From positions 48,002,001-48,066,000 of the forward strand of contig CP141127.1 in the NCBI GenBank assembly GCA_035236585.1: 64,000 nt of DNA, read 5' to 3'. This document shows positions 23,819 through 64,000 of this stretch, in pieces. Within the stretch, counting starts at the first letter, position 1. Each line of letters starts with the position of its first letter. The translations under genes and the position numbers were made by a program. The notes beneath the pieces are model-generated. The model did no database searches, was not told where the DNA came from, and saw only the letters and a program-made list of their open reading frames with translations. The DNA comes from Warburgia ugandensis. Lineage: Eukaryota > Streptophyta > Magnoliopsida > Canellales > Canellaceae.

Positions 23819-24225
23819 AGCATTCAATTAGATCATCTAACTGTTCAAAATTGCAAAATTTAGCTCGATTTTTAATTTAGCTCATATTGACCATCCAAAC
23901 TTTAAACTTTTCAAAATCAACGGTCAGATAATCATTAGAGCTTATTAAATGACAAATGTGCAGTTTAGATGATTCTAATTTAGTCTTTTATTTTGCAGAT
24001 CAACTAAAAGAAATTGGATGGCTCGGATCTATGTTCAATGGTGTAGATCAAGTGAAGATCAATAAGGCAAGAGTCCTAATTGGAAGAGGATTCCTAATGA
24101 GAAGAGTCCTAATTAGAAAAGGATTCCTAATGAGAAGAGTCCTAATTTGGGAGAGGAGAAAGTTTCCTCATAGGAAGCTACCTCTTCAAGGAAAGAGTTT
24201 GAGACAAATAAGGAAGTGCAAAGAC

Positions 24226-24231
24226 TATAAA
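24226..24231 (+). promoter_or_regulatory. TATA box of LTR 1
   Basis: GACTATAAAGAGGG lies about 400 bp into the LTR and is followed by a C/T-rich leader, as expected at the U3/R border. The same motif is kept in all thirteen LTRs. Confidence 0.6.
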
Positions 24232-25303
24232 GAGGGAAACCGAGTGAGGGAGGAGTTGTTTTTTTTTTAGAGTTTGGAGATTTTGGAGTTCTCTTAGTTG
24301 TTTTACTTGCCACTTTCTTTTTCTTGTTGTTTGGAGTTTCTCTTGTTTACTCGTGTCTATTTCACGTTGACAACCGTCTCTTGCCTTTCATCAACATCTT
24401 CCTCTTCAACATCTAGATTTCCATTTGTTTACCACACCATCATCTTCTTCACATCCTTCTTTCATCCATCGCACTACAATCACCACCCAGTATCTCCACA
24501 TCTGATGCATCCAAAACTCTAGGCTAATGCACCAAACCAACACCGGTCTTCATAGGTCGCACGCCCAGTGAAATTTCAGGAAACATTCCAATTTTACCCC
24601 TGCTTGAATAATTAAATTTACATTCCATGTGCTGTACAATTTTTATTCCCATTTTATGTTATTCCCATTTTGAGTTATTCGCATTCTGTATTATGTCATT
24701 ACTGTTTAATGCAATTAATGGTACTGGTTTAACTACAGAAAACCATTAATTTCTTATTTATTTTAATTCATAATTGCAATTAAATTTCCTAGAATATTTT
24801 GAGGATAGTTTCTAGTTGAATTACTATTCCTAATCTTTATTTTGGATTCTAAGAATAGATCTATGCCGTTGAATCTTAATTTCATTAATTTGATTAGATC
24901 TCTAAATATTTGAAGAACTTGACAAATTCCTCCGTCGGATCATTAATCCAGGGCATGTTGAACATAGTGATATAGGTTGATCAAATTTTTGGAAACCTAA
25001 AGTGAAGAAATTGGACAATATTAATCTAGGGAATTAGATTTTCTTAATTTTTCTAGTTTTAGTTTTAATTAAGGTTTTAGTGGTTATTTTTTTGTTCTTT
25101 TTCAAAATAGACTTCTAGAAGTTCATTGGTAAACTAAATATGAAGTTCAAATTTTTTTTGTTAATTTTTTTTTCAATTGATTAAATTTTAAATAATTAAA
25201 TTTTATTAAAAACTCCAAAATTTTAAAGCAAGTCCTTGTGGGATCGACCCGTATTTGCATAGCTATACTACAATAGCTTGTGCACCTGCGAAAAACATCA
25301 ACA

Positions 25304-25330
25304 AGTTTTTGGCACCGTTTTTGGGACTTG
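25304..25330 (+). promoter_or_regulatory. Primer-binding-site-like motif, unit 1
   Basis: TTTTTGGCACCGTTTTTGGG directly after the LTR end resembles the TGGCGCCGTTGCCGGGG site of plant Athila/Tat-type Ty3/gypsy elements. The preceding TCCTTGTGGGATCGACCCG is also characteristic of their LTR 3' ends. It is degenerate, but every unit keeps it with little or no change. Confidence 0.65.
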
Positions 25331-25944
25331 CAAAGAAGTTTTTAAAGAATTTAATTTAAAATTCCAAAAAAATCCAATTTTTTTTTAAAATAAAAAATAT
25401 TAGGAATTGCATTTTAGGCATTTTTAGGTGCATATTTTATTTTTTTGTCAGAACCACTTTATTTCCTGAATTTGCTACTAATTGTTATATGTCTTTTTCA
25501 GGAAATTGTCAAGTGGAGCATTATCAATTAAATAGATTTTTCTTGCTTTCTTAGATTAGGAAATTTTCTTTTTTTTTTTAGTGAATCTTGTAGTGAGGCC
25601 CCTTTGTAATTTTCTCTTTTAATTTTAATTTTTAAAGGGTTGTAATAATACAGGGCAAGTGTGGGATAAGGTGGCCCACACTTGATCTTCATTAGAAACC
25701 CCACCGTAAGTCTTCTCACTCATTTAATTTCTAGATTAGGGTTTGCATTTAGAATAATTTTGCATTGGTTAGTAGTTTAATTGCATATAGAAAGCATCCT
25801 TTATAATTTTTGCATTTTTCGAGTTTTGCATTAGTTTATTGCTTTTCATTGCATCTTAGGACACGGTTAATGCTTTAAGGTGATATATATGCTGATCGAA
25901 TTTCCATGGAGTGTGGAATTAATTAGTAAGGGAACCCTACCTCC

Positions 25945-26300
25945 ATAAGATCAGGGGTGGATTTCATCACCACTCATTGGCCTACCTAGGATAATCACCT
26001 CAAGCACATTACCTTAACTTTCAATCAAGTTAAAATCAATCAGAAGAGACCTATAGGGCCATCACATGCTCGTAGGACCCTCTTACTAAGAAGAGATTTA
26101 TTGTCACTCTAGTGGCTTTTGAGCACTATGGTTATTGAGGGTTGTCTAATAGATCCTCGCTCTTCCCTCACCTCTTGTTGACGTTTGTGAGGTCTAAATG
26201 CCTCTTTACATGAGAGTTGTATTAACCACCTTGCGAAGAACCTAATTGGTAAGTAATAATCAAGTCTAGAGGAGAGGAGGAGTGCTAGAGTAGGCTAAAT
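25945..26300 (+). repeat. Shared ~350-bp module, tandem-unit copy
   Basis: Counterpart of 1075-1430 in the giant LTR. Ordered anchors include TTGGCCTACCTAGGATAAT, TAAAATCAATCAGAA, CACTCTAGTGG, CTAATAGATCCTCGCTCTTC and TTGTGAGGTCTAAATGCCTC. Present at the same offset in every unit, and nearly invariant among units. Confidence 0.65.
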
Positions 26301-26431
26301 AAAAGCATTGTCTGGACACAAATTCAAGAAAATCAATATGCTGCTTATTAACCTCAAGGATTATATTGTGTCCTTTGTTTGTTCATCTTTCTAGGAGGTT
26401 AGGTTGCATCATGTAGGTTAGTTTCGTCTTT

Positions 26432-26451
26432 AAAAAAAAGAAAAAAAAAGA
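26432..26451 (+). repeat. Interrupted poly(A) tract, unit 1
   Basis: A8-G-A9-G-type run in the internal segment. Its length varies between units: extended by an extra A-block in units 3 and 4 and shortened in unit 7. It behaves as a slippage marker inside the array. Confidence 0.8.
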
Positions 26452-26957
26452 AGATGGAGCCATCAGCTTATTGGATTCGGTCACATAATGAGAGAAATAT
26501 GTTTAACCCCTTGTTTGAGAGTTTTTTTTCTGAGCGTATACCTATGACGATTTGAGGTCAAGGTATATTTCCAATGGAATGTAAGCATATCCAATTAGAA
26601 AGATTTATGTTGCTGTACACACACATATGCACTTCGAGAAATAGCTCAAATAAAATGTCTTTAATATGTGTATGGTGAGTAAAATTGTCAAATCCTCTAC
26701 ATTAAGTTATGAAAAATTAGTAAAATTACTAATGAATGAGGATTCTCTAAGATAAAATAGGGGACTCGACTTTATTGAATTTTGTGGGTATATTCACTAC
26801 AAACCCTTATGAGGCCTAACTCGTCCACTAGGGGTAACCTAGCGGTTCAAGGGCTTATTTCATGTGCTAAATGCAAACGTGAGTACCTACGAAAGTGACA
26901 ACTTATACCAGTTTTGTGTAAAATTTGTCTGCATGTTTTGCTTCGGACTAGCAAAAT

Positions 26958-26970
26958 GCTGGTTGGGGTG
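26958..26970 (+). promoter_or_regulatory. Polypurine tract before LTR 2
   Basis: GCTGGTTGGGGTG directly before the LTR start TGTGTCAATTAG. The context CGGACTAGCAAAATGCTGG resembles the 3' end of the internal region in plant Athila/Tat-like elements. It recurs before each of LTRs 2-13. Confidence 0.65.
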
Positions 26971-29900
26971 TGTGTCAATTAGATCATGTAACCATTCAAA
27001 ATTGTAAAATTTAGCTTGATTTTTAATTTAGCTCAAATTGACCATCCAAACTTTAAAAATTTCAAAAATCAACGGTCAGATGATCATTAGAGCTTATTAG
27101 ATGACTAATGTATGGTTTAGATTATTCTAATTTAGTCTTTTATTTTGCAGATCAACTAAAAGAAATTGGATGGCTCGAATCTATGTTCAATAGTGTTGAT
27201 CAAGTGAACATCAATAAGGCAAGAGTCCTAGTTGGAAGAGGATTCCTAATGAGAAGAGTCCTAATTTGGGAGAGGAGAAAGTTTCCTCATAGGAAGCTAC
27301 CTCTTCAAGGAAAGAGTTTGAGACAAATAAGGAAGTGCAAAGACTATAAAGAGGGAAACCGAGTGAGGGAGGAGTTGTTTTTTTTTTAGAGTTTGGAGTT
27401 TTTGGAGTTCTCTTAGTTGTTTTACTTGCCACTTTCTTTTTCTTGTTGTTTGGAGTTTCTCTTGTTTACTCGTGTCTATTTCACGTTGACAACCGTCTCT
27501 TGCCTTTCATCAACATCTTCCTCTTCAACATCTAGATTTCCATTTGTTTACCACACCATCATCTTCTTCACATCCTTCTTTCATCCATCGCACTACAATC
27601 ACCACCCAGTATCTCCACATCTGATGCATCCAAAACTCTAGGCTAATGCACCAAACCAACACCGGTCTTCATAGGTCGCACGCCCAGTGAAATTTCAGGA
27701 AACATTCCAATTTTACCCCTGCTTGAATAATTAAATTTACATTCCATGTGGTGTACAATTTTTATTCCCATTTTATGTTATTCCCATTTTGAGTTATTCG
27801 CATTCTGTATTATGTCATTACTGTTTAATGCAATTAATGGTACTGGTTTAACTACAGAAAACCATTAATTTCTTATTTATTTTAATTCATAATTGCAATT
27901 AAATTTCCTAGAACATTTTGAGGATAGTTTCTAGTTGAATTACTATTCCTAATCTTTATTTTGGATTCTAAGAATAGATCTAAGCCGTTGAATCTTAATT
28001 TCATTAATTTGATTAGATCTCTAAATATTTGAAGAACTTGACAAATTCCTCCGTCGGATCATTAATCCAGGGCATGTTGAACATAGTGATATAGGTTGAT
28101 CAAATTTTTGGAAACCTAAAGTGAAGAAATTGGACAATATTAATCTAGGGAATTAGATTTTCTTAATTTTTCTAGTTTTAGTTTTAATTAAGGTTTTAGT
28201 GGTTATTTTTTTGTTCTTTTTCAAAATAGACTTCTAGAAGTTCATTGGTAAACTAAATATGAAGTTCAAATTTTTTCTGTTAATTTTTTTTTCAATTGAT
28301 TAAATTTTAAATAATTAAATTTTATTAAAAACTCCAAAATTTTAAAGCAAGTCCTTGTGGGATCGACCCGTATTTGCATAGCTATACTACAATAGCTTGT
28401 GCACCTGCGAAAAACATCAACAAGTTTTTGGCACCGTTTTTGGGACTTGCAAAGAAGTTTTTAAAGAATTTAATTTAAAATTCCAAAAAAATCCAATTTT
28501 TTTTTAAAATAAAAAATATTAGGAATTGCATTTTAGGCATTTTTAGGTGCATATTTTATTTTTTGTCAGAACCACTTTATTTCCTGAATTTGCTACTAAT
28601 TGTTATATGTCTTTTTCAGGAAATTGTCAAGTGGAGCATTATCAATTAAATAGATTTTTCTTGCTTTCTTAGATTAGGAAATTTTCTTTTTTTTTTTAGT
28701 GAATCTTGTAGTGAGGCCCCTTTGTAATTTTCTCTTTTAATTTTAATTTTTAAAGGGTTGTAATAATACAGGGCAAGTGTGGGATAAGGTGGCCCACACT
28801 TGATCTTCATTAGAAACCCCACTGTAAGTCTTCTCACTCATTTAATTTCTAGATTAGCGTTTGCATTTAGAATAATTTTGCATTGGTTAGTAGTTTAATT
28901 GCATATAGAAAGCATCCTTTATAATTTTTGCATTTTTCGAGTTTTGCATTAGTTTATTGCTTTTCATTGCATCTTAGGACACGGTTAATGCTTTAAGGTG
29001 ATATATATGCTGATCGAATTTCCATGGAGTGTGGAATTAATTAGTAAGGGAACCCTACCTCCATAAGATCAGGGGTGGATTTCATCACCACTCATTGGCC
29101 TACCTAGGATAATCACCTCAAGCACATTACCTTAACTTTCAATCAAGTTAAAATCAATCAGAAGAGACCTATAGGGCCATCACATGCTCGTAGGACCCTC
29201 TTACTAAGAAGAGATTTATTGTCACTCTAGTGGCTTTTGAGCACTATGGTTATTGAGGGTTGTCTAATAGATCCTCGCTCTTCCCTCACCTCTTGTTGAC
29301 GTTTGTGAGGTCTAAATGCCTCTTTACATGAGAGTTGTATTAACCACCTTGCGAAGAACCTAATTGGTAAGTAATAATCAAGTCTAGAGGAGAGGAGGAG
29401 TGCTAGAGTAGGCTAATTAAAAGCATTGTCCTGACACAAATTCAAGAAAATCAATATGCTGCTTATTAACCTCAAGGATTATATTGTGTCCTTTGTTTGT
29501 TCATCTTTCTAGGAGGTTAGGTTGCATCATGTAGGTTAGTTTCGTCTTTAAAAAAAAGAAAAAAAAAGAAGATGGAGCCATCAGCTTATTGGATTCGGTC
29601 ACATAATGAGAGAAATATGTTTAACCCCTTGTTTGAGAGTTTTTTCTGAGCGTATACCTATGACGATTTGAGGTCAAGGTATATTTCCAATGGAATGTAA
29701 GCATATCCAATTAGAAAGATTTATGTTGCTGTACACACACATATGCACTTCGAGAAATAGCTCAAATAAAATGTCTTTAATATGTGTATGGTGAGTAAAA
29801 TTGTCAAATCCTCTACATTAAGTTATGAAAAATTAGTAAAATTACTAATGAATGAGGATTCTCTAAGATAAAATAGGGGACTCGACTTTATTGAATTTTG

Positions 29901-30088
29901 TGGGTATATTCACTACAAACCCTTATGAGGCCTAACTCGTCCACTAGGGGTAACCTAGCGGTTCAAGGGCTTATTTCATGTGCTAAATGCAAACGTGAGT
30001 ACCTACGAAAGTGACAACTTATACCAGTTTTGTGTAAAATATTTGTCTGCATGTTTTGCTTCGGACTAGCAAAATGCTGGTTGGGGTG
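26971..30088 (+). mobile_element. Array unit 2 (3118 bp)
   Basis: LTR 26971-28422 (1452 bp), internal 28423-30088. The TATA motif is at 27345-27350. Same variant class as unit 1 at nearly all diagnostic sites (GGGATCG, ATCAACAAG, CTTGATCTTC, GATCAGGGG, CCTCAAGG). The LTR 5' end reads CATGTAACCATTC. Confidence 0.9.
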
Positions 30089-33000
30089 TGTGTCAATTAG
30101 ATCATGTAACCATTCAAAATTGTAAAATTTAGCTTGATTTTTAATTTAGCTCAAATTGACCATCCAAACTTTAAAAATTTCAAAAATCAACGGTCAGATG
30201 ATCATTAGAGCTTATTAGATGACTAATGTATGGTTTAGATGATTCTAATTTAGTCTTTTATTTTGCAGATCAACTAAAAGAAATTGGATGGCTCGAATCT
30301 ATGTTCAATAGTGTTGATCAAGTGAACATCAATAAGGCAAGAGTCCTAGTTGGAAGAGGATTCCTAATGAGAAGAGTCCTAATTTGGGAGAGGAGAAAGT
30401 TTCCTCATAGGAAGCTACCTCTTCAAGGAAAGAGTTTGAGACAAATAAGGAAGTGCAAAGACTATAAAGAGGGAAACCGAGTGAGGGAGGAGTTGTTTTT
30501 TTTTTAGAGTTTGGAGTTTTTGGAGTTCTCTTAGTTGTTTTACTTGCCAGTTTCTTTTTCTTGTTGTTTGGAGTTTCTCTTGTTTACTCGTGTCTATTTC
30601 ACGTTGACAACCGTCTCTTGCCTTTCATCAACATCTTCCTCTTCAACATCCAGATTTCCATTTGTTTACCACACCATCTTCTTCTTCACATCCTTCTTTC
30701 ATCCATCGCACTACAATCACCACCCAGTATCTCCACATCTGATGCATCCAAAACTCTAGGCTAATGCACCAAACCAACACCGGTCTTCATAGGTCGCACG
30801 CCCAGTGAAATTTCAGGAAACATTCCAATTTTACCCCTGCTTGAATAATTAAATTTACATTCCATGTGGTGTACAATTTTTATTCCCATTTTATGTTATT
30901 CCTATTTTGAGTTATTCGCATTCTGTATTATGTCATTACTGTTTAATGCAATTAATGGTACTGGTTTAACTACAGAAAACCATTAATTTCTTATTTATTT
31001 TAATTCATAATTGCAATTAAATTTCCTAGAATATTTTGAGGATAGTTTCTAGTTGAATTACTATTCCTAATCTTTATTTTGGATTCTAAGAATAGATCTA
31101 AGCCGTTGAATCTTAATTTCATTAATTTGATTAGATCTCTAAATATTTGAAGAACTTGACAAATTCCTCCGTCGGATCATTAATCCAGGGCATGTTGAAC
31201 ATAGTGATATAGGTTGATCAAATTTTTGGAAACCTAAAGTGAAGAAATTGGACAATATTAATCTAGGGAATTAGATTTTCTTAATTTTTCTAGTTTTAGT
31301 TTTAATTAAGGTTTTAGTGGTTATTTTTTTGTTCTTTTTCAAAATAGACTTCTAGAAGTTCATTGGTAAACTAAATATGAAGTTCAAAATTTTTTTGTTA
31401 ATTTTTTTTTTCAATTGATTAAATTTTAAATAATTAAATTTTATTAAAAACTCCAAAATTTTAAAGCAAGTCCTTGTGGGATCGACCCGTATTTGCATAG
31501 CTATACTACAATAGCTTGTGCACCTGCGAAAAACATCAATATGTTTTTGGCACCATTTTTGGGACTTGCAAAGAAGTTTTTAAAGAATTTAATTTAAAAT
31601 TCCAAAAAAATCCAATTTTTTTTTAAAATAAAAAATATTAGGAATTGCATTTTAGGCATTTTTAGGTGCATATTTTATTTTTTTGTCAGAACCACTTTAT
31701 TTCCTGAATTTGCTACTAATTGTTATATGTCTTTTTCAGGAAATTGTCAAGTGGAGCATTATCAATTAAATAGATTTTTCTTGCTTTCTTAGATTAGGAA
31801 ATTTTCTTTTTTTTTTTAGTGAATCTTGTAGTGAGGCCCCTTTGTAATTTTCTCTTTTAATTTTAATTTTTAAAGGGTTGTAATAATACAGGGCAAGTGT
31901 GGGATAAGGTGGCCCACACTTGATCTTCATTAGAAACCCCACTGTAAGTCTTCTCACTCATTTAATTTCTAGATTAGGGTTTGCATTTAGAATAATTTTG
32001 CATTGGTTAGTAGTTTAATTGCATATAGAAAGCATCCTTTATAATTTTTGCATTTTTCGAGTTTTGCATTAGTTTATTGCTTTTCATTGCATCTTAGGAC
32101 ACGGTTAATGCTTTAAGGTGATATATATGCTGATCGAATTTCCATGGAGTGTGGAATTAATTAGTAAGGGAACCCTACCTCCATAAGATCAGGGGTGGAT
32201 TTCATCACCACTCATTGGCCTACCTAGGATAATCACCTCAAGCACATTACCTTAACTTTCAATCAAGTTAAAATCAATCAGAAGAGACCTATAGGGCCAT
32301 CACATGCTCGTAGGACCCTCTTACTAAGAAGAGATTTATTGTCACTCTAGTGGCTTTTGAGCACTATGGTTATTGAGGGTTGTCTAATAGATCCTCGCTC
32401 TTCCCTCACCTCTTGTTGACGTTTGTGAGGTCTAAATGCCTCTTTACATGAGAGTTGTATTAACCACCTTGCGAAGAACCTAATTGGTAAGTAATAATCA
32501 AGTCTAAAGGAGAGGAGGAGTGCTAGAGTAGGCTAATTAAAAGCATTGTCTGGACACAAATTCAAGAAAATCAATATGCTGCTTATTAACCTCAAGGATT
32601 ATATTGTGTCCTTTGTTTGTTCATCTTTCTAGGAGGTTAGGTTGCATCATGTAGGTTAGTTTCGTCTTTAAAAAAAAGAAAAAAAAAGAAAAAAAAAGAA
32701 GATGGAGCCATTAGCTTATTGGATTCGGTCACATAATGAGAGAAATATGTTTAACCCCTTGTTTGAGAGTTTTTTTTCTGAGCGTATACCTATGACGATT
32801 TGAGGTCAAGGTATATTTCCAATGGAATGTAAGCATATCCAATTAGAAAGATTTATGTTGCTGTACACACACATATGCACTTCGAGAAATAGCTCAAATA
32901 AAATGTCTTTAATATGTGTATGGTGAGTAAAATTGTCAAATCCTCTACATTAAGTTATGAAAAATTAGTAAAATTACTAATGAATGAGGATTCTCTAAGA

Positions 33001-33220
33001 TAAAATAGGGGACTCGACTTTATTGAATTTTGTGGGTATATTCACTACAAACCCTTATGAGGCCTAACTCGTCCACTAGGGGTAACCTAGCGGTTCAAGG
33101 GCTTATTTCATGTGCTAAATGCAATCGTGAGTACCTACGAAAGTGACAACTTATACCAGTTTTGTGTAAAATATTTGTCTGCATGTTTTGCTTCGGACTA
33201 GCAAAATGCTGGTTGGGGTG
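30089..33220 (+). mobile_element. Array unit 3 (3132 bp)
   Basis: LTR 30089-31541, internal 31542-33220. Transitional: it keeps the unit 1-2 states GGGATCG, CTTGATCTTC and CCTCAAGG, but has the ATCAATATG junction after the LTR and the GCAATCGTGAG state found in units 4-9. The A-rich tract has an extra A9-G block (32670-32700), shared only with unit 4. Confidence 0.9.
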
Positions 33221-36200
33221 TGTGTCAATTAGATCATCTAGCCATTCAAAATTGTAAAATTTAGCTTGATTTTTAATTTAGCTCAAATTGACCATCCAAA
33301 CTTTAAAAATTTCAAAAATCAACGGTCAGATGATCATTAGAGCTTATTAGATGACTAATGTATGGTTTAGATGATTCTAATTTAGTCTTTTATTTTGCAG
33401 ATCAACTAAAAGAAATTGGATGGCTCGAATCTATGTTCAATAGTGTTGATCAAGTGAACATCAATAAGGCAAGAGTCCTAGTTGGAAGAGGATTCCTAAT
33501 GAGAAGAGTCCTAATTTGGGAGAGGAGAAAGTTTCCTCATAGGAAGCTACCTCTTCAAGGAAAGAGTTTGAGACAAATAAGGAAGTGCAAAGACTATAAA
33601 GAGGGAAACCGAGTGAGGGAGGAGTTGTTTTTTTAGAGTTTGGAGTTTTTGGAGTTCTCTTAGTTGTTTTACTTGCCAGTTTCTTTTTCTTGTTGTTTGG
33701 AGTTTCTCTTGTTTACTCGTGTCTATTTCACGTTGACAACCGTCTCTTGCCTTTCATCAACATCTTCCTCTTCAACATCCAGATTTCCATTTGTTTACCA
33801 CACCATCTTCTTCTTCACATCCTTCTTTCATCCATCGCACTACAATCACCACCCAGTATCTCCACATCTGATGCATCCAAAACTCTAGGCTAATGCACCA
33901 AACCAACACCGGTCTTCATAGGTCGCACGCCCAGTGAAATTTCAGGAAACATTCCAATTTTACCCCTGCTTGAATAATTAAATTTACATTCCATGTGGTG
34001 TACAATTTTTATTCCCATTTTATGTTATTCCTATTTTGAGTTATTCGCATTCTGTATTCTATCATTACTGTTTAATGCAATTAATGGTACTGGTTTAACT
34101 ACAGAAAACCATTAATTTCTTATTTATTTTAATTCATAATTGCAATTAAATTTCCTAGAATATTTTGAGGATAGTTTCTAGTTGAATTACTATTCCTAAT
34201 CTTTATTTTGGATTCTAAGAATAGATCTGAGCCGTTGAATCTTAATTTCATTAATTTGATTAGATCTCTAAATATTTGAAGAACTTGACAAATTCCTCCG
34301 TCGGATCATTAATCCAGGGCATGTTGAACATAGTGATATAGGTTGATCAAATTTTTGGACACCTAAAGTGAAGAAATTGGACAATATTAATCTAGGGAAT
34401 TAGATTTTCTTAATTTTTCTAGTTTTAGTTTTAATTAAGGTTTTAGTGGTTATTTTTTTGTTCTTTTTCAAAATAGACTTCTAGAAGTTCATTGGTAAAC
34501 TAAATATGAAGTTCAAAATTTTTTTGTTAATTTTTTTTTTCAATTGATTAAATTTTAAATAATTAAATTTTATTAAAAACTCCAAAATTTTAAAGCAAGT
34601 CCTTGTGCGATCGACCCGTATTTGCGTAGCCATACTACAATAGCTTGTGCACCTGCGAAAAACATCAATATGTTTTTGGCACCATTTTTGGGACTTGCAA
34701 AGAAGTTTTTAAAGAATTTAATTTAAAATTCCAAAAAAATCCAATTTTTATTTTAAAATAAAAAATATTAGGAATTCCGTTTTTGGCATTTTTAGGTGCA
34801 TATTTTATTTTTTTGTCAGAACCACTTTATTTCCTGAATTTGCTACTAATTGTTATATTTCTTTTTCAGGAAATTGTCAAGTGGAGCATTATCAATTAAA
34901 TAGATTTTTCTTGCTTTCTTAGATTAGGAAATTTTCTTTTCTTTTGTAGTGAATCTTGTAATGAGGCCCCTTTGTAATTTTCTCTTTTAATTTTAATTTT
35001 TAAAGGGTTGTAATAATACAGGGCAAGTGTGGGATAAGGTGGCCCACACTTGCTCTTCATTAGAAACCCCACTGTAAGTCTTCTCACTCATTTAATTTCT
35101 AGATTAGGGTTTGCATTTAGAATAATTTTGCATTGGTTAGTAGTTTAATTGCATATAGAAAGCATCCTTTATAATTTTTGCATTTTTCGAGTTTTGCATT
35201 AGTTTATTGCTTTTCATTGCATCTTAGGACACGGTTAATGCTTTAAGGTGATATATATGCTGATCGAATTTCCATGGAGTGTGGAATTAATTAGTAAGGG
35301 AACCCTACCTCCATAAGATCGTGGGTGGATTTCATCACCACTCATTGGCCTACCTAGGATAATCACCTCAAGCACATTACCTTAACTTTCAATCAAGTTA
35401 AAATCAATCAGAAGAGACCTATAGGGCCATCACATGCTCGTAGGACCCTCTTACTAAGAAGAGATTTATTGTCACTCTAGTGGCTTTTGAGCACTATGGT
35501 TATTGAGGGTTGTCTAATAGATCCTCGCTCTTCCCTCACCTCTTGTTGACGTTTGTGAGGTCTAAATGCCTCTTTACATGAGAGTTGTATTAACCACCTT
35601 GCGAAGAACCTAATTGGTAAGTAATAATCAAGTCTAAAGGAGAGGAGGAGTGCTAGAGTAGGCTAATTAAAAGCATTGTCTGGACACAAATTCAAGAAAA
35701 TCAATATGCTGCTTATTAACCTCGAGGATTATATTGTGTCCTTTGTTTGTTCATCTTTCTAGGAGGTTAGGTTGCATCATGTAGGTTAGTTTCGTCTTTA
35801 AAAAAAAGAAAAAAAAAGAAAAAAAAAGAAGATGGAGCCATTAGCTTATTGGATTCGGTCACATAATGAGAGAAATATGTTTAACCCCTTGTTTGAGAGT
35901 TTTTTTTCTGAGCGTATACCTATGACGATTTGAGGTCAAGGTATATTTCCAATGGAATGTAAGCATATCCAATTAGAAAGATTTATGTTGCTGTACACAC
36001 ACATATGCACTTCGAGAAATAGCTCAAATAAAATGTCTTTAATATGTGTATGGTGAGTAAAATTGTCAAATCCTCTACATTAAGTTATGAAAAATTAGTA
36101 AAATTACTAATGAATGAGGATTCTCTAAGATAAAATAGGGGACTCGACTTTATTGAATTTTGTGGGTATATTCACTACAAACCCTTATGAGGCCTAACTC

Positions 36201-36350
36201 GTCCACTAGGGGTAACCTAGCGGTTCAAGGGCTTATTTCATGTGCTAAATGCAATCGTGAGTACCTACGAAAGTGACAACTTATACCAGTTTTGTGTAAA
36301 ATATTTGTCTGCATGTTTTGCTTCGGACTAGCAAAATGCTGGTTGGGGTG
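33221..36350 (+). mobile_element. Array unit 4 (3130 bp)
   Basis: LTR 33221-34670, internal 34671-36350. First unit with GCGATCG, TTTGCGTAG, CTTGCTCTTC, CCTCGAGG and GATCGTGGG, the states that mark the middle block. It shares the long A-rich tract with unit 3 and has a private change in the primer-side spacer near 34748-34785. Confidence 0.9.
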
Positions 36351-39300: not shown

Positions 39301-39471
39301 AACCCTTATGAGGCCTAACTCGTCCACTAGGGGTAACCTAGCGGTTCAAGGGCTTATTTCATGTGCTAAATGCAATCGTGAGTACCTACGAAAGTGACAA
39401 CTTATACCAGTTTTGTGTAAAATATTTGTCTGCATGTTTTGCTTCGGACTAGCAAAATGCTGGTTGGGGTG
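36351..39471 (+). mobile_element. Array unit 5 (3121 bp)
   Basis: LTR 36351-37804, internal 37805-39471. First LTR with TTTACCTCAAATT near its start, the form kept by all later units. It carries the CCCAAAGTG and ACCTGGTCTT variants in the leader, and CAAGTTTTTGG shared with unit 7 only. Confidence 0.9.
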
Positions 39472-48700: not shown

Positions 48701-48829
48701 GGTTCAAGGGCTTATTTCATGTGCTAAATGCAATCGTGAGTACCTACGAAAGTGACAACTTATACCAGTTTTGTGTAAAATATTTGTCTGCATGTTTTGC
48801 TTCGGACTAGCAAAATGCTGGTTGGGGTG
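45707..48829 (+). mobile_element. Array unit 8 (3123 bp)
   Basis: LTR 45707-47161, internal 47162-48829. Private GATCGAATTCG in the LTR tail, where others have GATCGACCCG. Shares GTGGCCTTTGAGC with unit 5, and CATTACGTATT with units 7 and 10. Confidence 0.9.
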
Positions 48830-51800: not shown

Positions 51801-51950
51801 GTCCACTAGGGGTAACCTAGCGGTTCAAGGGCTTATTTCATGTGCTAAATGCAATCGTGAGTACCTACGAAAGTGACAACTTATACCAGTTTTGTGTAAA
51901 ATATTTGTCTGCATGTTTTGCTTCGGACTAGCAAAATGCTGGTTGGGGTG
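48830..51950 (+). mobile_element. Array unit 9 (3121 bp)
   Basis: LTR 48830-50282, internal 50283-51950. Middle-block states in the LTR tail (GCGATCG, GCGTAG, CAATATG), combined with GATCAGGGG and CTTAGATTAGG in the internal part. This makes it a mosaic at the block border. Confidence 0.9.
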
Positions 51951-54900
51951 TGTGTCAATTAGATCATCTAACCATTCAAAATTGTAAAATTTAGCTTGAT
52001 TTTTAATTTACCTCAAATTGACCATCCAAACTTTAAAAATTTCAAAAATCAACGGTCAGATGATCATTAGAGCTTATTAGATGACTAATGTATGGTTTAG
52101 ATGATTCTAATTTAGTCTTTTATTTTGCAGATCAACTAAAAGAAATTGGATGGCTCGAATCTATGTTCAATAGTGTTGATCAAGTGAACATCAATAAGGC
52201 AAGAGTCCTAGTTGGAAGAGGATTCCTAATGAGAAGAGTCCTAATTTGGGAGAGGAGAAAGTTTCCTCATAGGAAGCTACCTCTTCAAGGAAAGAGTTTG
52301 AGACAAATAAGGAAGTGCAAAGACTATAAAGAGGGAAACCGAGTGAGGGAGGAGTTGTTTTTTTTTTAGAGTTTGGAGTTTTTGGAGTTCTCTTAGTTGT
52401 TTTACTTGCCAGTTTCTTTTTCTTGTTGTTTGGAGTTTCTCTTGTTTACTCGTGTCTATTTCACGTTGACAACCGTCTCTTGCCTTTCATCAACATCTTC
52501 CTCTTCAACATCCAGATTTCCATTTGTTTACCACACCATCTTCTTCTTCACATCCTTCTTTCATCCATCGCACTACAATCACCACCCAGTATCTCCACAT
52601 CTGATGCATCCAAAACTCTAGGCTAATGCACCAAACCAACACCGGTCTTCATAGGTCGCACGCCCAAAGTGAAATTTCAGAAACATTCCAATTTTACCCC
52701 TGCTTGAATAATTAAATTTACATTCCATGTGGTGTACAATTTTTATTCCCATTTTATGTTATTCCTATTTTGAGTTATTCGCATTACGTATTATGTCATT
52801 CTTGTTTAATGCAATTAATGGTATTGGTTTAACTACAGAAAACCATTAATTTCTTATTTATTTTAATTCATAATTGCAATTAAATTTCCTAGAATATTTT
52901 GAGGATAGTTTCTAGTTGAATTACTATTCCTAATCTTTATTTTGGATTCTAAGAATAGATCTGAGCCGTTGAATCTTAATTTCATTAATTTGATTAGATC
53001 TCTAAATATTTGAAGAACTTGACAAATTCCTCCGTCGGATCATTAATCCAGGGCATGTTGAACATAGTGATATAGGTTGATCAAATTTTTGGACACCTAA
53101 AGTGAAGAAATTGGACAATATTAATCTAGGGAATTAGATTTTCTTAATTTTTCTAGTTTTAGTTTTAATTAAGGTTTTAGTGGTTATTTTTTTGTTCTTT
53201 TTCAAAATAGACTTCTAGAAGTTCATTGGTAAACAAAATATGAAGTTCAAATCTTTTCTGTTAATTTTTTTTTTCAATTGATTAAATTTTAAATAATTAA
53301 ATTTTATTAAAAACTCCAAAATTTTAAAGCAAGTCCTTGTGCGATCGACCCGTATTTGCATAGCTATACTACAATAGCTTGTGCACCTGCGAAAAACATC
53401 AATAAGTTTTTGGCACCGTTTTTGGGACTTGCAAAGAAGTTTTTAAAGAATTTAATTTAAAATTCCAAAAAAATCCAAATTTTTTTTAAAATAAAAAATA
53501 TTAGGAATTCCATTTTAGGCATTTTTAGGTGCATATTTTATTTTTTTGTCAGAACCACTTTATTTCCTGAATTTGCTACTAATTGTTATATTTCTTTTTC
53601 AGGAAATTGTCAAGTGGAGCATTATCAATTAAATAGATTTTTCTTGCTTTCTTATATTAGGAAATTTTCTTTTCTTTTGTAGTGAATCTTGTAGTGAGGC
53701 CCCTTTGTAATTTTCTCTTTTAATTTTAATTTTTAAAGGGTTGTAATAATACAGGGCAAGTGTGGGATAAGGTGGCCCACACTTGCTCTTCATTAGAAAC
53801 CCCACTGTAAGTCTTCTCACTCATTTAATTTCTAGATTAGGGTTTGCATTTAGAATAATTTTGCATTGGTTAGTAGTTTAATTGCATATAGAAAGCATCC
53901 TTTATAATTTTTGCATTTTTCGAGTTTTGCATTAGTTTATTGCTTTTCATTGCATCTTAGGACACGGTTAATGCTTTAAGGTGATATATATGCTGATCGA
54001 ATTTCCATGGAGTGTGGAATTAATTAGTAAGGGAACCCTACCTCCATAAGATCGTGGGTGGATTTCATCACCACTCATTGGCCTACCTAGGATAATCACC
54101 TCAAGCACATTACCTTAACTTTCAATCAAGTTAAAATCAATCAGAAGAGACCTATAGGGCCATCACATGCTCGTAGGACCCTCTTACTAAGAAGAGATTT
54201 ATTGTCACTGTAGTGGCTTTTGAGCACTATGGTTATTGAGGGTTGTCTAATAGATCCTCGCTCTTCCCTCACCTCTTGTTGACGTTTGTGAGGTCTAAAT
54301 GCCTCTTTACATGAGAGTTGTATTAACCACCTTGCGAAGAACCTAATTGGTAAGTAATAATCAAGTCTAAAGGAGAGGAGGAGTGCTAGAGTAGGCTAAT
54401 TAAAAGCATTGTCTGGACACAAATTCAAGAAAATCAATATGCGCTTATTAACCTCAAGGATTATATTGTGTCCTTTGTTTGTTCATCTTTCTAGGAGGTT
54501 AGGTTGCATCATGTAGGTTAGTTTCGTCTTTAAAAAAAAAGAAAAAAAGAAGATGGAGCCATCGACTTATTGGATTCGGTCACATAATGAGACAAATATG
54601 TTTAACCCCTTGTTTGAGAGTTTTTTTCTGAGCGTATACCTATGACGATTTGAGGTCAAGGTATATTTCCAATGGAATGTAACCATATCCAATTAGAAAG
54701 ATTTATGTTGCTGTACACACACATATGCACTTCGAGAAATAGCTCAAATAAAATGTCTTTAATATGTGTATGGTGAGTAAAATTGTCAAATCCTCTACAT
54801 TAAGTTATGAAAAATTAGTAAAATTACTAATGAATGAGGATTCTCTAAGATAAAATAAGGGACTCGAATTTATTGAATTTTGTGGGTATATTCACTACAA

Positions 54901-55070
54901 ACCCTTATGAGGCCTAACTCGTCCACTAGGGGTAACCTAGCGGTTCAAGGGCTTATTTCATGTGCTAAATGCAATCGTGAGTACCTACGAAAGTGACAAC
55001 TTATACCAGCTTAGTGTAAAATATTTGTCTGCATGTTTTGCTTCGGACTAGCAAAATGCTGGTTGGGGTG
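51951..55070 (+). mobile_element. Array unit 10 (3120 bp)
   Basis: LTR 51951-53404, internal 53405-55070. First of the third block: ATCAATAAG junction, TTTGCATAG, CACTGTAGTGG, GAGACAAATATG and GTAACCATATCC. It has private changes near 54442 and 54564. Confidence 0.9.
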
Positions 55071-58000
55071 TGTGTCAATTAGATCATCTAACCATTCAAA
55101 ATTGTAAAATTTAGCTTGATTTTTAATTTACCTCAAATTGACCATCCAAACTTTAAAAATTTCAAAAATCAACGGTCAGATGATCATTAGAGCTTATTAG
55201 ATGACTAATGTATGGTTTAGATGATTCTAATTTAGTCTTTTATTTTGCAGATCAACTAAAAGAAATTGGATGGCTCGAATCTATGTTCAATAGTGTTGAT
55301 CAAGTGAACATCAATAAGGCAAGAGTCCTAGTTGGAAGAGGATTCCTAATGAGAAGAGTCCTAATTTGGGAGAGGAGAAAGTTTCCTCATAGGAAGCTAC
55401 CTCTTCAAGGAAAGAGTTTGAGACAAATAAGGAAGTGCAAAGACTATAAAGAGGGAAACCGAGTGAGGGAGGAGTTGTATTTTTTTTAGAGTTTGGAGTT
55501 TTTGGAGTTCTCTTAGTTGTTTTACTTGCCACTTTCTTTTTCTTGTTGTTTGGAGTTTCTCTTGTTTACTCGTGTCTATTTCACGTTGACAACCGTGTCT
55601 TGCCTTTCATCAACATCTTCCTCTTCAACATCCAGATTTCCATTTGTTTACCACACCATCTTCTTCTTCACATCCTTCTTTCATCCATCGCACTACAATC
55701 ACCACCCAGTATCTCCACATCTGATGCATCCAAAACTCTAGGCTAATGCACCAAACCAACACCGGTCTTCATAGGTCGCACGCCCAAAGTGAAATTTCAG
55801 GAAACATTCCAATTTTACCCTGCTTGAATAATTAAATTTACATTCCATGTGGTGTACAATTTTTATTCCCATTTTATGTTATTCCTATTTTGAGTTATTC
55901 GCATTCTGTATTATGTCATTACTGATTAGTGCAATTAATGGTACTGGTTTAACTACAGAAAACCATTAATTTCTTATTTATTTTAATTCATAATTGCAAT
56001 TAAATTTCCTAGAATATTTTGAGGATAGTTTCTAGTTGAATTACTATTCCTAATCTTTATTTTGGATTCTAAGAATAGATCTGAGCCGTTGAATCTTAAT
56101 TTCATTAATTTGATTAGATCTCTAAATATTTGAAGAACTTGACAAATTCCTCCGTCGGATCATTAATCCAGGGCATGTTGAACATAGTGATATAGGTTGA
56201 TCAAATTTTTGGACACCTAAAGTGAAGAAATTGGACAATATTAATCTAGGGAATTAGATTTTCTTAATTTTTCTAGTTTTAGTTTTAATTAAGGTTTTAG
56301 TGGTTATTTTTTTGTTCTTTTTCAAAATAGACTTCTAGAAGTTCATTGGTAAACAAAATATGAAGTTCAAATCTTTTCTGTTAATTTTTTTTTTCAATTG
56401 ATTAAATTTTAAATAATTAAATTTTATTAAAAACTCCAAAATTTTAAAGCAAGTCCTTGTGCGATCGACCCGTATTTGCATAGCTATACTACAATAGCTT
56501 GTGCACTGCGAAAAACATCAATAAGTTTTTGGCACCGTTTTTGGGACTTGCAAAGAAGTTTTTAAAGAATTTAATTTAAAATTCCAAAAAAATCCAAATT
56601 TTTTTTAAAATAAAAAATATTAGGAATTCCATTTTAGGCATTTTTAGGTGCATATTTTATTTTTTTGTCAGAACCACTTTATTTCCTGAATTTGCTACTA
56701 ATTGTTATATTTCTTTTTCAGGAAATTGTCAAGTGGAGCATTATCAATTAAATAGATTTTTCTTGCTTTCTTATATTAGGAAATTTTCTTTTCTTTTGTA
56801 GTGAATCTTGTAGTGAGGCCCCTTTGTAATTTTCTCTTTTAATTTTAATTTTTAAAGGGTTGTAATAATACAGGGCAAGTGTGGGATAAGGTGGCCCACA
56901 CTTGCTCTTCATTAGAAACCCCACTGTAAGTCTTCTCACTCATTTAATTTCTAGATTAGGGTTTGCATTTAGAATAATTTTGCATTGGTTAGTAGTTTAA
57001 TTGCATATAGAAAGCATCCTTTATAATTTTTGCATTTTTCGAGTTTTGCATTAGTTTATTGCTTTTCATTGCATCTTAGGACACGGTTAATGCTTTAAGG
57101 TGATATATATGCTGATCGAATTTCCATGGAGTGTGGAATTAATTAGTAAGGGAACCCTACCTCCATAAGATCAGGCATGGATTTCATCACCACTCATTGG
57201 CCTACCTAGGATAATCACCTCAAGCACATTACCTTAACTTTCAATCAAGTTAAAATCAATCAGAAGAGACCTATAGGGCCATCACATGCTCGTAGGACCC
57301 TCTTACTAAGAAGAGATTTATTGTCACTGTAGTGGCTTTTGAGCACTATGGTTATTGAGGGTTGTCTAATAGATCCTCGCTCTTCCCTCACCTCTTGTTG
57401 ACGTTTGTGAGGTCTAAATGCCTCTTTACATGAGAGTTGTATTAACCACCTTGCGAAGAACCTAATTGGTAAGTAATAATCAAGTCTAAAGGAGAGGAGG
57501 AGTGCTAGAGTAGGCTAATTAAAAGCATTGTCTGGACACAAATTCAAGAAAATCAATATGCTGCTTATTAACCTCAAGGATTATATTGTGTCCTTTGTTT
57601 GTTCATCTTTCTAGGAGGTTAGGTTGCATCATGTAGGTTAGTTTCGTCTTTAAAAAAAAGAAAAAAAAAGAAGATGGAGCCATCAGCTTATTGGATTCGG
57701 TCACATAATGAGACAAATATGTTTAACCCCTTGTTTGAGAGTTTTTTTTCTGAGCGTATACCTATGACGATTTGAGGTCAAGGTATATTTCCAATGGAAT
57801 GTAACCATATCCAATTAGAAAGATTTATGTTGCTGTACACACACATATGCACTTCGAGAAATAGCTCAAATAAAATGTCTTTAATATGTGTATGGTGAGT
57901 AAAATTGTCAAATCCTCTACATTAAGTTATGAAAAATTAGTAAAATTACTAATGAATGAGGATTCTCTAAGATAAAATAAGGGACTCGAATTTATTGAAT

Positions 58001-58192
58001 TTTGTGGGTATATTCACTACAAACCCTTATGAGGCCTAACTCGTCCACTAGGGGTAACCTAGCGGTTCAAGGGCTTATTTCATGTGCTAAATGCAATCGT
58101 GAGTACCTACGAAAGTGACAACTTATACCAGTTTTGTGTAAAATATTTGTCTGCATGTTTTGCTTCGGACTAGCAAAATGCTGGTTGGGGTG
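55071..58192 (+). mobile_element. Array unit 11 (3122 bp)
   Basis: LTR 55071-56523, internal 56524-58192. Third-block states throughout. Private GATCAGGCATGG at 57171-57180. Shares a GTTGTATTTTTTT run with unit 7. Confidence 0.9.
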
Positions 58193-61100
58193 TGTGTCAA
58201 TTAGATCATCTAACCATTCAAAATTGTAAAATTTAGCTTGATTTTTAATTTACCTCAAATTGACCATCCAAACTTTAAAAATTTCAAAAATCAACGGTCA
58301 GATGATCATTAGAGCTTATTAGATGACTAATGTATGGTTTAGATGATTCTAATTTAGTCTTTTATTTTGCGGATCAACTAAAAGAAATTGGATGGCTCGA
58401 ATCTATGTTCAATAGTGTTGATCAAGTGAACATCAATAAGGCAAGAGTCCTAGTTGGAAGAGGATTCCTAATGAGAAGAGTCCTAATTTGGGAGAGGAGA
58501 AAGTTTCCTCATAGGAAGCTACCTCTTCAAGGAAAGAGTTTGAGACAAATAAGGAAGTGCAAAGACTATAAAGAGGGAAACCGAGTGAGGGAGGAGTTGT
58601 TTTTTTAGAGTTTGGAGTTTTTGGAGTTCTCTTAGTTGTTTTACTTGCCTCTTTCTTTTTCTTGTTGTTTGGAGTTTCTCTTGTTTACTCGTGTCTATTT
58701 CACGTTGACAACCGTCTCTTGCCTTTCATCAACATCTTCCTCTTCAACATCCAGATTTCCATTTGTTTACCACACCATCTTCTTCTTCACATCCTTCTTT
58801 CATCCATCGCACTACAATCACCACCCAGTATCTCCACATCTGATGCATCCAAAACTCTAGGCTAATGCACCAAACCAACACCGGTCTTCATAGGTCGCAC
58901 GCCCAAAGTGAAATTTCAGAAACATTCCAATTTTACCCCTGCTTGAATAATTAAATTTACATTCCATGTGGTGTACAATTTTTATTCCCATTTTATGTTA
59001 TTCCTATTTTGAGTTATTCGCATTCTGTATTATGTCATTACTGTTTAATGCAATTAATGGTACTGGTTTAACTACAGAAAACCATTAATTTCTTATTTAT
59101 TTTAATTCATAATTGCAATTAAATTTCCTAGAATATTTTGAGGATAGTTTCTAGTTGAATTACTATTCCTAATCTTTATTTTGGATTCTAAGAATAGATC
59201 TGAGCCGTTGAATCTTAATTTCATTAATTTGATTAGATCTCTAAATATTTGAAGAACTTGACAAATTCCTCCGTCGGATCATTAATCCAGGGCATGTTGA
59301 ACATAGTGATATAGGTTGATCAAATTTTTGGACACCTAAAGTGAAGAAATTGGACAATATTAATCTAGGGAATTAGATTTTCTTAATTTTTCTAGTTTTA
59401 GTTTTAATTAAGGTTTTAGTGGTTATTTTTTTGTTCTTTTTCAAAATAGACTTCTAGAAGTTCATTGGTAAACAAAATATGAAGTTCAAATCTTTTACTG
59501 TTAATTTTTTTTCAATTGATTAAATTTTAAATAATTAAATTTTATTAAAAACTCCAAAATTTTAAAGCAAGTCCTTGTGCGATCGACCCGTATTTGCATA
59601 GCTATACTACAATAGCTTGTGCACCTGCGAAAAAACATCAATAAGTTTTTGGCACCGTTTTTGGGACTTGCAAAGAAGTTTTTAAAGAATTTAATTTAAA
59701 ATTCCAAAAAAATCCAAATTTTTTTTAAAATAAAAAATATTAGGAATTCCATTTTAGGCATTTTTAGGTGCATATTTTATTTTTTTGTCAGAACCACTTT
59801 ATTTCCTGAATTTGCTACTAATTGTTATATTTCTTTTTCAGAAATTGTCAAGTGGAGCATTATCAATTAAATAGATTTTTCTTGCTTTCTTATATTAGGA
59901 AATTTTCTTTTCTTTTGTAGTGAATCTTGTAGTGAGGCCCCTTTGTAATTTTCTCTTTTAATTTTAATTTTTAAAGGGTTGTAATAATACAGGGCAAGTG
60001 TGGGATAAGGTGGCCCACACTTGCTCTTCATTAGAAACCCCACTGTAAGTCTTCTCACTCATTTAATTTCTAGATTAGGGTTTGCATTTAGAATAATTTT
60101 GCATTGGTTAGTAGTTTAATTGCATATAGAAAGCATCCTTTATAATTTTTGCATTTTTCGAGTTTTGCATTAGTTTATTGCTTTTCATTGCATCTTAGGA
60201 CACGGTTAATGCTTTAAGGTGATATATATGCTGATCGAATTTCCATGGAGTGTGGAATTAATTAGTAAGGGAACCCTACCTCCATAAGATCAGGGGTGGA
60301 TTTCATCACCACTCATTGGCCTACCTAGGATAATCACCTCAAGCACATTACCTTAACTTTCAATCAAGTTAAAATCAATCAGAAGAGACCTATAGGGCCA
60401 TCACATGCTCGTAGGACCCTCTTACTAAGAAGAGATTTATTGTCACTGTAGTGGCTTTTGAGCACTATGGTTATTGAGGGTTGTCTAATAGATCCTCGCT
60501 CTTCCCTCACCTCTTGTTGACGTTTGTGAGGTCTAAATGCCTCTTTACATGAGAGTTGTATTAACCACCTTGCGAAGAACCTAATTGGTAAGTAATAATC
60601 AAGTCTAAAGGAGAGGAGGAGTGCTAGAGTAGGCTAATTAAAAGCATTGTCTGGACACAAATTCAAGAAAATCAATATGCTGCTTATTAACCTCAAGGAT
60701 TATATTGTGTCCTTTGTTTGTTCATCTTTCTAGGAGGTTAGGTTGCATCATGTAGGTTAGTTTCGTCTTTAAAAAAAAGAAAAAAAAAGAAGATGGAGCC
60801 ATCAGCTTATTGGATTCGGTCACATAATGAGACAAATATGTTTAACCCCTTGTTTGAGAGTTTTTTTTCTGAGCGTATACCTATGACGATTTGAGGTCAA
60901 GGTATATTTCCAATGGAATGTAACCATATCCAATTAGAAAGATTTATGTTGCTGTACACACACATATGCACTTCGAGAAATAGCTCAAATAAAATGTCTT
61001 TAATATGTGTATGGTGAGTAAAATTGTCAAATCCTCTACATTAAGTTATGAAAAATTAGTAAAATTACTAATGAATGAGGATTCTCTAAGATAAAATAGG

Positions 61101-61310
61101 GGACTCGAATTTATTGAATTTTGTGGGTATATTCACTACAAACCCTTATGAGGCCTAACTCGTCCACTAGGGGTAACCTAGCGGTTCAAGGGCTTATTTC
61201 ATGTGCTAAATGCAATCGTGAGTACCTACGAAAGTGACAACTTATACCGCTTTGTGTAAAATATTTGTCTGCATGTTTTGCTTCGGACTAGCAAAATGCT
61301 GGTTGGGGTG
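58193..61310 (+). mobile_element. Array unit 12 (3118 bp)
   Basis: LTR 58193-59643, internal 59644-61310. Third-block states, with ATACCGCTTTGTG at its end as in unit 7. The leader has CCCAAAGTG, as in units 5, 10 and 11. Confidence 0.9.
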
Positions 61311-64000
61311 TGTGTCAATTAGATCATCTAACCATTCAAAATTGTAAAATTTAGCTTGATTTTTAATTTACCTCAAATTGACCATCCAAACTTTAAAAAT
61401 TTCAAAAATCAACGGTCAGATGATCATTAGAGCTTATTAGATGTCTAATGTATGGTTTAGATGATTCTAATTTAGTCTTTTATTTTGCAGATCAACTAAA
61501 AGAAATTGGATGGCTCGAATCTATGTTCAATAGTGTTGATCAAGTGAACATCAATAAGGCAAGAGTCCTAGTTGGAAGAGGATTCCTAATGAGAAGAGTC
61601 CTAATTTGGGAGAGGAGAAAGTTTCCTCATAGGAAGCTACCTCTTCAAGGAAAGAGTTTGAGACAAATAAGGAAGTGCAAAGACTATAAAGAGGGAAACC
61701 GAGTGAGGGAGGAGTTGTGTTTTTTTAGAGTTTGGAGTTTTTGGAGTTCTCTTAGTTGTTTTACTTGCCAGTTTCTTTTTCTTGTTGTTTGGAGTTTCTC
61801 TTGTTTACTCGTGTCTATTTCACGTTGACAACCGTCTCTTGCCTTTCATCAACATCTTCCTCTTCAACATCCAGATTTCCATTTGTTTACCACACCATCT
61901 TCTTCTTCACATCCTTCTTTCATCCATCGCACTACAATCACCACCCAGTATCTCCACATCTGATGCATCCAAAACTCTAGGCTAATGCACCAAACCAACA
62001 CCGGTCTTCATAGGTCGCACGCCCAGTGAAATTTTAGGAAACATTCCAATTTTACCCCTGCTTGAATAATTAAATTTACATTCCATGTGGTGTACAATTT
62101 TTATTCCCATTTTATGTTATTCCTATTTTGAGTTATTCGCATTCTGTATTATGTCATTACTGTTTAATGCAATTAATGGTACTGGTTTAACTACAGAAAA
62201 CCATTAATTTCTTATTTATTTTAATTCATAATTGCAATTAAATTTCCTAGAATATTTTGAGGATAGTTTCTAGTTGAATTACTATTCCTAATCTTTATTT
62301 TGGATTCTAAGAATAGATCTGAGCCGTTGAATCTTAATTTCATTAATTTGATTAGATCTCTAAATATTTGAAGAACTTGACAAATTCCTCCGTCGGATCA
62401 TTAATCCAGGGCATGTTGAACATAGTGATATAGGTTGATCAAATTTTTGGACACCTAAAGTGAAGAAATTGGACAATATTAATCTAGGGAATTAGATTTT
62501 CTTAATTTTTCTAGTTTTAGTTTTAATTAAGGTTTTAGTGGTTATTTTTTTGTTCTTTTTCAAAATAGACTTCTAGAAGTTCATTGGTAAACTAAATATG
62601 AAGTTCAAATCTTTTCTGTTAATTTTTTTTTTCAATTGATTAAATTTTAAATAATTAAATTTTATTAAAAACTCCAAAATTTTAAAGCAAGTCCTTGTGC
62701 GATCGACCCGTATTTGCATAGCTATACTACAATAGCTTGTGCACTTGCGAAAAACATCAATAAGTTTTTGGCACCGTTTTTGGGACTTGCAAAGAAGTTT
62801 TTAAAGAATTTAATTTAAAATTCCAAAAAAATCCAAATTTTTTTTAAAATAAAAAATATTAGGAATTCCATTTTAGGCATTTTTAGGTGCATATTTTATT
62901 TTTTTTGTCAGAACCACTTTATTTCTTGAATTTGCTACTAATTGTTATATTTCTTTTTCAGGAAATTGTCAAGTGGAGCATTATCAATTAAATAGATTTT
63001 TCTTGCTTTCTTAGATTAGGAAATTTTTTTTTTTTTTTTAGTGAATCTTGTAGTGAGGCCCCTTTGTAATTTTCTCTTTTAATTTTAATTTTTAAAGGGT
63101 TGTAATAATACAGGGCAAGTGTGGGATAAGGTGGCCCACACTTGATCTTCATTAGAAACCCCACTGTAAGTCTTCTCACTCATTTAATTTCTAGATTAGG
63201 GTTTGCATTTAGAATAATTTTGCATTGGTTAGTAGTTTAATTGCATATAGAAAGCATCCTTTATAATTTTTGCATTTTTCGAGTTTTGCATTAGTTTATT
63301 GCTTTTCATTGCATCTTAGGACACGGTTAATGCTTTAAGGTGATATATATGCTGATCGAATTTCCATGGAGTGTGGAATTAATTAGTAAGGGAACCCTAC
63401 CTCCATAAGATCAAGGGTGGATTTCATCACCACTCATTGGCCTACCTAGGATAATCACCTCAAGCACATTACCTTAACTTTCAATCAAGTTAAAATCAAT
63501 CAGAAGAGACCTATAGGGCCATCACATGCTCGTAGGACCCTCTTACTAAGAAGAGATTTATTGTCACTGTAGTGGCTTTTGAGCACTATGGTTATTGAGG
63601 GTTGTCTAATAGATCCTCGCTCTTCCCTCACCTCTTGTTGACGTATGTGAGGTCTAAATGCCTCTTTACATGAGAGATGTATTAACCACCTTGCGAAGAA
63701 CCTAATTGGTAAGTAATAATCAAGTCTAAAGGAGAGGAGGAGTGCTAGAGTAGGCTAATTAAAAGCATTGTCTGGACACAAATTCAAGAAAATCAATATG
63801 CTGCTTATTAACCTCAAGGATTATATTGTGTCCTTTGTTTGTTCATCTTTCTAGGAGGTTAGGTTGCATCATGTAGGTTAGTTTCGTCTTTAAAAAAAAG
63901 AAAAAAAAAGAAGATGGAGCAATCAGCTTATTGGATTCGGTCACATAATGAGAGAAATATGTTTAACCCCTTGTTTGAGAGTTTTTTTTCTGAGCGTATA
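61311..64000 (+). mobile_element. Array unit 13, cut by window end
   Basis: LTR 61311-62762, internal 62763 to the window end (about 430 bp missing). Third-block LTR tail, but it returns to the unit 1-3 states CTTGATCTTC and CTTAGATTAGG in the internal segment and to GAGAGAAATATG. A related subtype may therefore continue to the right. Confidence 0.9.

Follow-up and report, generated by a model that had tools for sequence, protein, structure and literature searches.

The window, by which we mean the whole stretch of 64,000 nucleotides that was analysed (C2:48002001-48066000), carries from position 23781 to its right edge a head-to-tail array in which LTRs and internal segments alternate in a single orientation and without insertion. 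Comparison of the window with itself gave one long diagonal at an offset of 3,119 bp (24102-60879 against 27221-64000, 99.2% identity), together with its multiples, and the units, measured from anchor to anchor (n = 12), are 3,114-3,152 bp long, i.e. about 3.12 kb. Chance is excluded as the origin of such an array. The inner LTRs start, on the plus strand, at 26973, 30091, 33223, 36353, 39474, 42595, 45709, 48832, 51953, 55073, 58195 and 61313. A query spanning the internal end, U3 and R-U5 recovered 12 complete inner LTRs and the two terminal ones among the 41 matches listed. The array spans C2:48025781-48067154 (41,374 bp, or 41.4 kb) and comprises 14 LTRs and 13 internal segments, and both of its ends adjoin unique sequence. 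Its features are as follows, with positions in the window unless another sequence is named.

23776..23780, no strand: candidate left copy of a target-site duplication, GTGAA, to the left of the first LTR; the right end of the last LTR is missing
23781..64000, plus: the array within the window, beginning with the first LTR and continuing with alternating internal segments and LTRs to window-equivalent 65154
23781..25303, plus: first LTR (LTR5), the sole LTR with the full family start TGTTAAG
23822..24079, plus: outer part of LTR5, a relic that escaped homogenisation (21-22 differences in 258 sites against each inner LTR)
24080..24160, plus: interval of LTR5 in which relic sequence switches to array-type sequence
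24069-24157, plus: 33-bp tandem repeat in LTR5, one copy more than in the other units
24567..24580, plus: LTR-deletion junction, AGTGAAA joined to TTTCAGG, with ~0.6 kb absent that the last LTR retains; shared by the inner LTRs
25304..26972, plus: first internal segment, 1,669 bp, without a large ORF
near 26449, plus: internal-deletion junction of the first segment, ~2.8 kb absent relative to relatives
26973..28422, plus: first inner LTR, 1,450 bp, missing the initial 40 bp of the family LTR; eleven others follow
28423..30090, plus: second internal segment, 1,668 bp, its start adjoining the PBS-like TTTTTGGCACCG
61313..64000, plus: last LTR to start in the window and the beginning of the 13th internal segment, split by the window edge
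L009:2435-3756: 14th LTR, outside the window, starting at window-equivalent 64435

The original prediction had described a period of about 3.12 kb, head to tail, in one direction and with no foreign insertion, and had put forward a self dot-plot as a check; the continuous diagonal and the 12 measured units bear this out. Its picture of non-coding units with shared LTRs was equally sound, no ORF of 100 aa being present in the unit examined. Thirteen LTRs start in the window, and of the internal segments 12 are complete and the 13th is partial. Two points on the limits of the array needed correction. Firstly, the array starts not at 23819 but at 23781, a position that the relatives confirm as an LTR start. 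Secondly, the array had been thought to be perhaps much longer; an extension far past the window is ruled out, since unit similarity stops at C2:48067154, within the 14th LTR and 1,154 bp outside the window.

Elsewhere in the window, a second repeat family is represented by a 3.95-kb direct repeat (2280-6229 and 11034-14989, 89% identity), which is surrounded by inverted pieces at 709-2267, 12432-13979 and 16565-17978 and has at least 24 further matches of at least 3 kb in the genome, at 85-89%, among the 40 matches listed. The sole Rfam match in the window is tRNA-like (RF00005, 20381-20457, minus strand, 39.3 bits); ARAGORN reported no tRNA in the window, that interval included. To the right of the array, L009:3820-4080 contains short repeated motifs around AAAGTC and AAAACGACTTT, resembling a small palindromic element.

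Anatomy of the unit and its parent family

The limits of the LTR were likewise corrected, by means of relatives found in searches over the 1.12-Gb genome (14 contigs); sequence was examined in 18 stretches around the best matches elsewhere, in two stretches of the right flank and in twelve adjoining ones. Relatives in which both LTRs could be placed have an LTR pair 6-11 kb apart, each LTR running from the motif found at 23781 (TGTTAAG) to that found at 25303 (CATCAACA), directly before a PBS-like site. This site, TTTTTGGCACCG, which would fit a tRNA, lies next to the LTR's end both in the window and in three relatives (1 of 12 bases differs in L013). Placing the LTR end at the right end of the array is ruled out, as the LTRs of the relatives continue to the PBS-like site. 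Of 10 relatives, 4 have an exact 5-bp target-site duplication and one more has a duplication that agrees at 4 of 5 bases; the remaining five have unsettled borders or a mismatch.

Each unit is thus made of an LTR of ~1.45 kb and an internal segment of ~1.67 kb. When compared with relatives or with the terminal LTRs, it has lost ~2.8 kb of the internal region, ~0.6 kb of the LTR middle and 40 bp of the LTR start, the last of these being missing from every LTR except the first. An A-rich tract is rejected as a PPT and instead marks the internal deletion. A coding function is ruled out by the longest open frame, 94 aa from stop to stop in the one unit examined, and by a Pfam scan of two unit frames, in which no match was found. 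The unit is non-coding and derives, by deletion, from a family of LTR retrotransposons that is dispersed in the genome.

That family is probably Ty3/gypsy. The LTR start of L014 and its R-U5 plus 5’ internal part match the unit at 78-87%, and between its LTRs this relative encodes a Retrotrans_gag domain (E 4.6e-11) and, with a score below cutoff, an aspartyl protease. Four of the six ORFs from relatives that were compared with Pfam gave no match, and one ORF of L016 has a weak PDB match to reverse transcriptase/RNase H (E 0.0093). The LTRs of L013, L014, L016, L022 and L024 have their first ~500 bp and R-U5 in common while their middles mostly cannot be aligned to each other, which suggests that the LTR middle of this family is modular or very fast-changing.

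Terminal LTRs, inner LTRs and the turnover of units

The first LTR has a full start and a deleted middle, the last lacks the 40 bp and keeps its middle, and both deletions are present in 12 of 12 inner LTRs, a distribution that we ascribe to unequal exchange which spared the outer edges. Where the units have their LTR deletion, the last LTR runs on through ~0.6 kb of sequence that is absent from all of them (L009:3155-3756). This stretch is LTR sequence and not plain flank, because L042 (on C5) contains U3, the 0.6-kb stretch and R-U5 in that order, with ~0.23 kb unmatched before R-U5, and because several copies elsewhere are paired on the same strand, at distances of 6-11 kb and in one case of 16 kb. 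R-U5 is missing from the last LTR, which is therefore incomplete: no unit match was found up to C2:48084000, and among the 40 matches listed for R-U5 there is none near the array beyond the 13 known copies. In a relative on C1, the last position of the 0.6-kb stretch is 31487883 and the first of R-U5 is 31487896. Judged from this relative, the end of the last LTR and the right-hand breakpoint of the unit’s LTR deletion coincide to within ~13 bp, at the U3/R-U5 border, a coincidence that may be due to chance, to a breakage hotspot or to a trace of the founding exchange.

The substitutions are in accord with the deletions. We counted 30 sites at which the first and last LTRs differ and the inner LTRs are uniform; two mixed sites, at which 11 of 12 inner LTRs resemble the last and one the first, were left out. 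Up to 24079 the inner LTRs resemble the last LTR at 19 of 21 sites, and from 24160 they resemble the first at 8 of 9. Between them, the first and last LTRs differ at 21 of 258 sites outside and at 5 of 378 inside, in the inner U3 (p 4e-5; the intervals between and after, at 1/51 and 5/27, were omitted from this test). Compared with the inner LTRs, the last one has 4-5 differences in 259 sites and 2-7 in 378, and 5 in 27 where it adjoins its unique stretch. This first-last-inner pattern indicates that the terminal LTRs are original at their outer edges only and that further inwards they have undergone exchange with the array. The likeness of the two terminal LTRs in the inner U3 (5/378) rules out a single founding crossover with terminal LTRs untouched ever since; later exchange is therefore needed at both ends.

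Within the array, pairwise unit identity is 98.5-99.8% (n = 12 units; mean divergence 0.85%, range 0.22-1.51%) and each aligned unit has 1-7 private substitutions. Adjacent units share 81 minor variants against a permutation mean of 32, a value reached in none of 2000 permutations; units two apart share 48 against a mean of 29 (112 of 2000 permutations as high), and units three or more apart share fewer than the permutation mean. This likeness of neighbours points to local unequal exchange. By the neighbour test the units are locally homogenised, and the locus is a long homogenised tandem array.

The outer part of LTR5 gives a measure of how much older the element is than its present interior. 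It diverges from one inner LTR 10.6 times as much as units do from each other, the outer distance of 8% resting on 22 differences in 258 bp, with a corrected distance of 0.056-0.138. Substitution rates are 1.3e-8 or 7e-9 per site and year, at which the outer edge of LTR5 would date to 3.5 or 6.5 My and the units to 0.33 or 0.61 My, respectively.

Proposed growth in place and its alternatives

Neither deletion junction is crossed outside the array among the ~40 matches listed per search. The internal-deletion junction occurs in 13 of 40 matches listed and the LTR-deletion junction in 13 of 41 (12 inner LTRs and the first), all of them in the array. Among the matches listed, long matches elsewhere have identities of 82-89% for R-U5 plus the 5’ internal part and 79-92% for U3; the maximum is 91% in the 3’ internal part and 92% in R-U5. 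Since, among the matches listed, the junctions are confined to the array and identity elsewhere does not exceed 92%, we conclude that the array grew in place. The interior is nearly identical from unit to unit, as predicted, and it is far more uniform than the element’s outer edge. The word satellite, used in the same prediction, is not supported: both junctions are found at this one 41-kb locus, and among the matches listed no other copy of either, and no amplification beyond one locus, was found.

Other members of the family lie scattered in the genome. The 41 matches listed for U3 include seven pairs that lie on one strand at a spacing of 6-10 kb and look like ordinary single elements. On C4, two minus-strand matches to R-U5 plus the 5’ internal part (C4:37810335-37811551 and C4:37814899-37816076) lie 4.6 kb apart and form a possible second, short LTR-internal tandem.

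Local uniqueness, relic edges, the presence of both deletions in the inner LTRs and the likeness of neighbours are observed directly. We propose, with a probability of roughly 0.8, that a resident, internally deleted retrotransposon was multiplied in place by misaligned recombination and that its interior was homogenised. One copy of the element, lacking ~2.8 kb of its internal region, would have resided at the site, its two LTRs diverging from each other. Homologous recombination in misaligned register between sister chromatids or homologues, first between LTRs and then between whole 3.12-kb units, would have led to 13 internal segments and 14 LTRs, and recurrent unequal exchange or conversion would have kept the interior uniform while the outer edges of the terminal LTRs escaped. 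A crossover between the two LTRs is the simplest option for the first duplication, and exchange may continue today.

The first duplication could, less probably, have been an illegitimate join at the U3/R-U5 border, between the U3 end of the last LTR and the R-U5 start of the first, followed by homologous amplification. This border is indeed where the LTR deletion has its right breakpoint and where the last LTR ends, to within ~13 bp if the C1 relative is taken as the guide, the U3 of the inner LTRs is close to the last LTR throughout, bar its last 27 bp, and illegitimate recombination is invoked for the maize tandems CRM1TR and CRM4TR in the part of PMC3648361 used here. Such a join would, however, have left the first LTR its middle, which is absent and must then have been lost in a later exchange, and in itself it does not account for the truncation of the last LTR at the border. 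An extended form of this idea, in which the array is a nascent satellite that arose by illegitimate exchange at a recurrent U3/R-U5 breakpoint and was then enlarged by homologous exchange, with individuals still differing in their number of units, seems to us just as speculative.

We consider it somewhat less likely again that the tandem arose during retrotransposition, by read-through of a one-LTR circle or by cDNA recombination, and was inserted as a dimer or small multimer whose unit number was then altered by exchange. Relic edges would be expected after such an insertion too, and the passages of PMC11899658 consulted keep a retrotransposition mechanism open for rice tandems. Insertion as a tandem nevertheless calls for an additional mechanism where the demonstrated exchange would suffice, and no closely related copy, single or tandem, was found among the 40 matches listed (best 92%). 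Insertion of the full 13-segment multimer at once is further disfavoured: outer and inner LTRs would be expected to be of equal age, yet they stand at 8% and 0.7%.

A short tandem wrongly expanded in the assembly is very improbable. The 1-7 private substitutions in each of 12 units are not expected of a simple duplicated contig, unit lengths vary from 3,114 to 3,152 bp, and unique sequence is joined at both array ends. Serial or nested insertion of independent copies, despite the known clustering of LTR elements, is ruled out for practical purposes by the shared deletion junctions and the single shared LTRs with no flanking DNA interposed between units.

The locus suggests a simple test for other assembled tandems, namely to set the inner LTRs against the outer edges of the two LTRs at the ends; in this comparison, old private edges around a young uniform interior denote growth in place. 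It also provides a relative age that is free of any rate, the outer edge of the first LTR being about ten times as far from an inner LTR as units are from each other. The array stands midway between a single element and a satellite derived from LTRs.

Comparison with known tandem systems

Shared-LTR tandems are frequent in plants according to a 2025 survey (PMC11899658), which describes tandem LTR-retrotransposons with shared internal LTRs in rice, Arabidopsis, almond and cotton; the sections drawn on here leave their origin, by tandem insertion or by recombination, open, and the present array bears on that question. Like those tandems, it alternates LTRs with internal segments, has highly similar units (98.5-99.8%) and represents one insertion, with an LTR at both ends, the last one incomplete. 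A 5-bp target-site duplication surrounds the whole tandem in 10 of 28 rice cases of the survey. The two loci detailed in those sections have two internal regions each, whereas 13 are present here, and the 28 selected tandems encode protein domains, unlike the present unit with its lack of a 100-aa ORF.

Other comparisons place the array by unit size and composition. The maize tandems CRM1TR and CRM4TR likewise derive from a gypsy LTR with adjoining untranslated sequence and are locally homogenised; their monomers of ~0.7-1.4 kb comprise part of the LTR and UTR, whereas the unit here contains a nearly whole LTR, with its deletions, and both ends of the internal region (PMC3648361, in the part used). 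The same source cites the Sobo satellite of wild potato, which also has a kilobase-sized, gypsy-LTR-related unit (4.7 kb) but occupies ~360 kb and includes other sequences in its monomer, in contrast to 41 kb and one element here. Cassandra arrays (PMC7215508, as far as excerpted) show the same alternation with shared LTRs, in units of ~0.5 kb (~6 kb for 12) with 5S-like LTRs, compared with LTRs of 1.45 kb here; the Rfam scan of the window found no 5S match, and the short, 5S-like LTR of Cassandra and TRIM elements is thus not what the array contains. Satellites derived from repeats within Ogre elements are another case (PMC7004042, in the portion seen). By description and not by sequence, the array is also akin to a centromeric megasatellite of a kangaroo endogenous retrovirus, cited in the consulted part of PMC11899658, in which an LTR element is repeated with its structure kept and LTR-LTR recombination is proposed. 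The array thus belongs to the known kind of shared-LTR tandems, ordinary in kind and unusually legible in detail.
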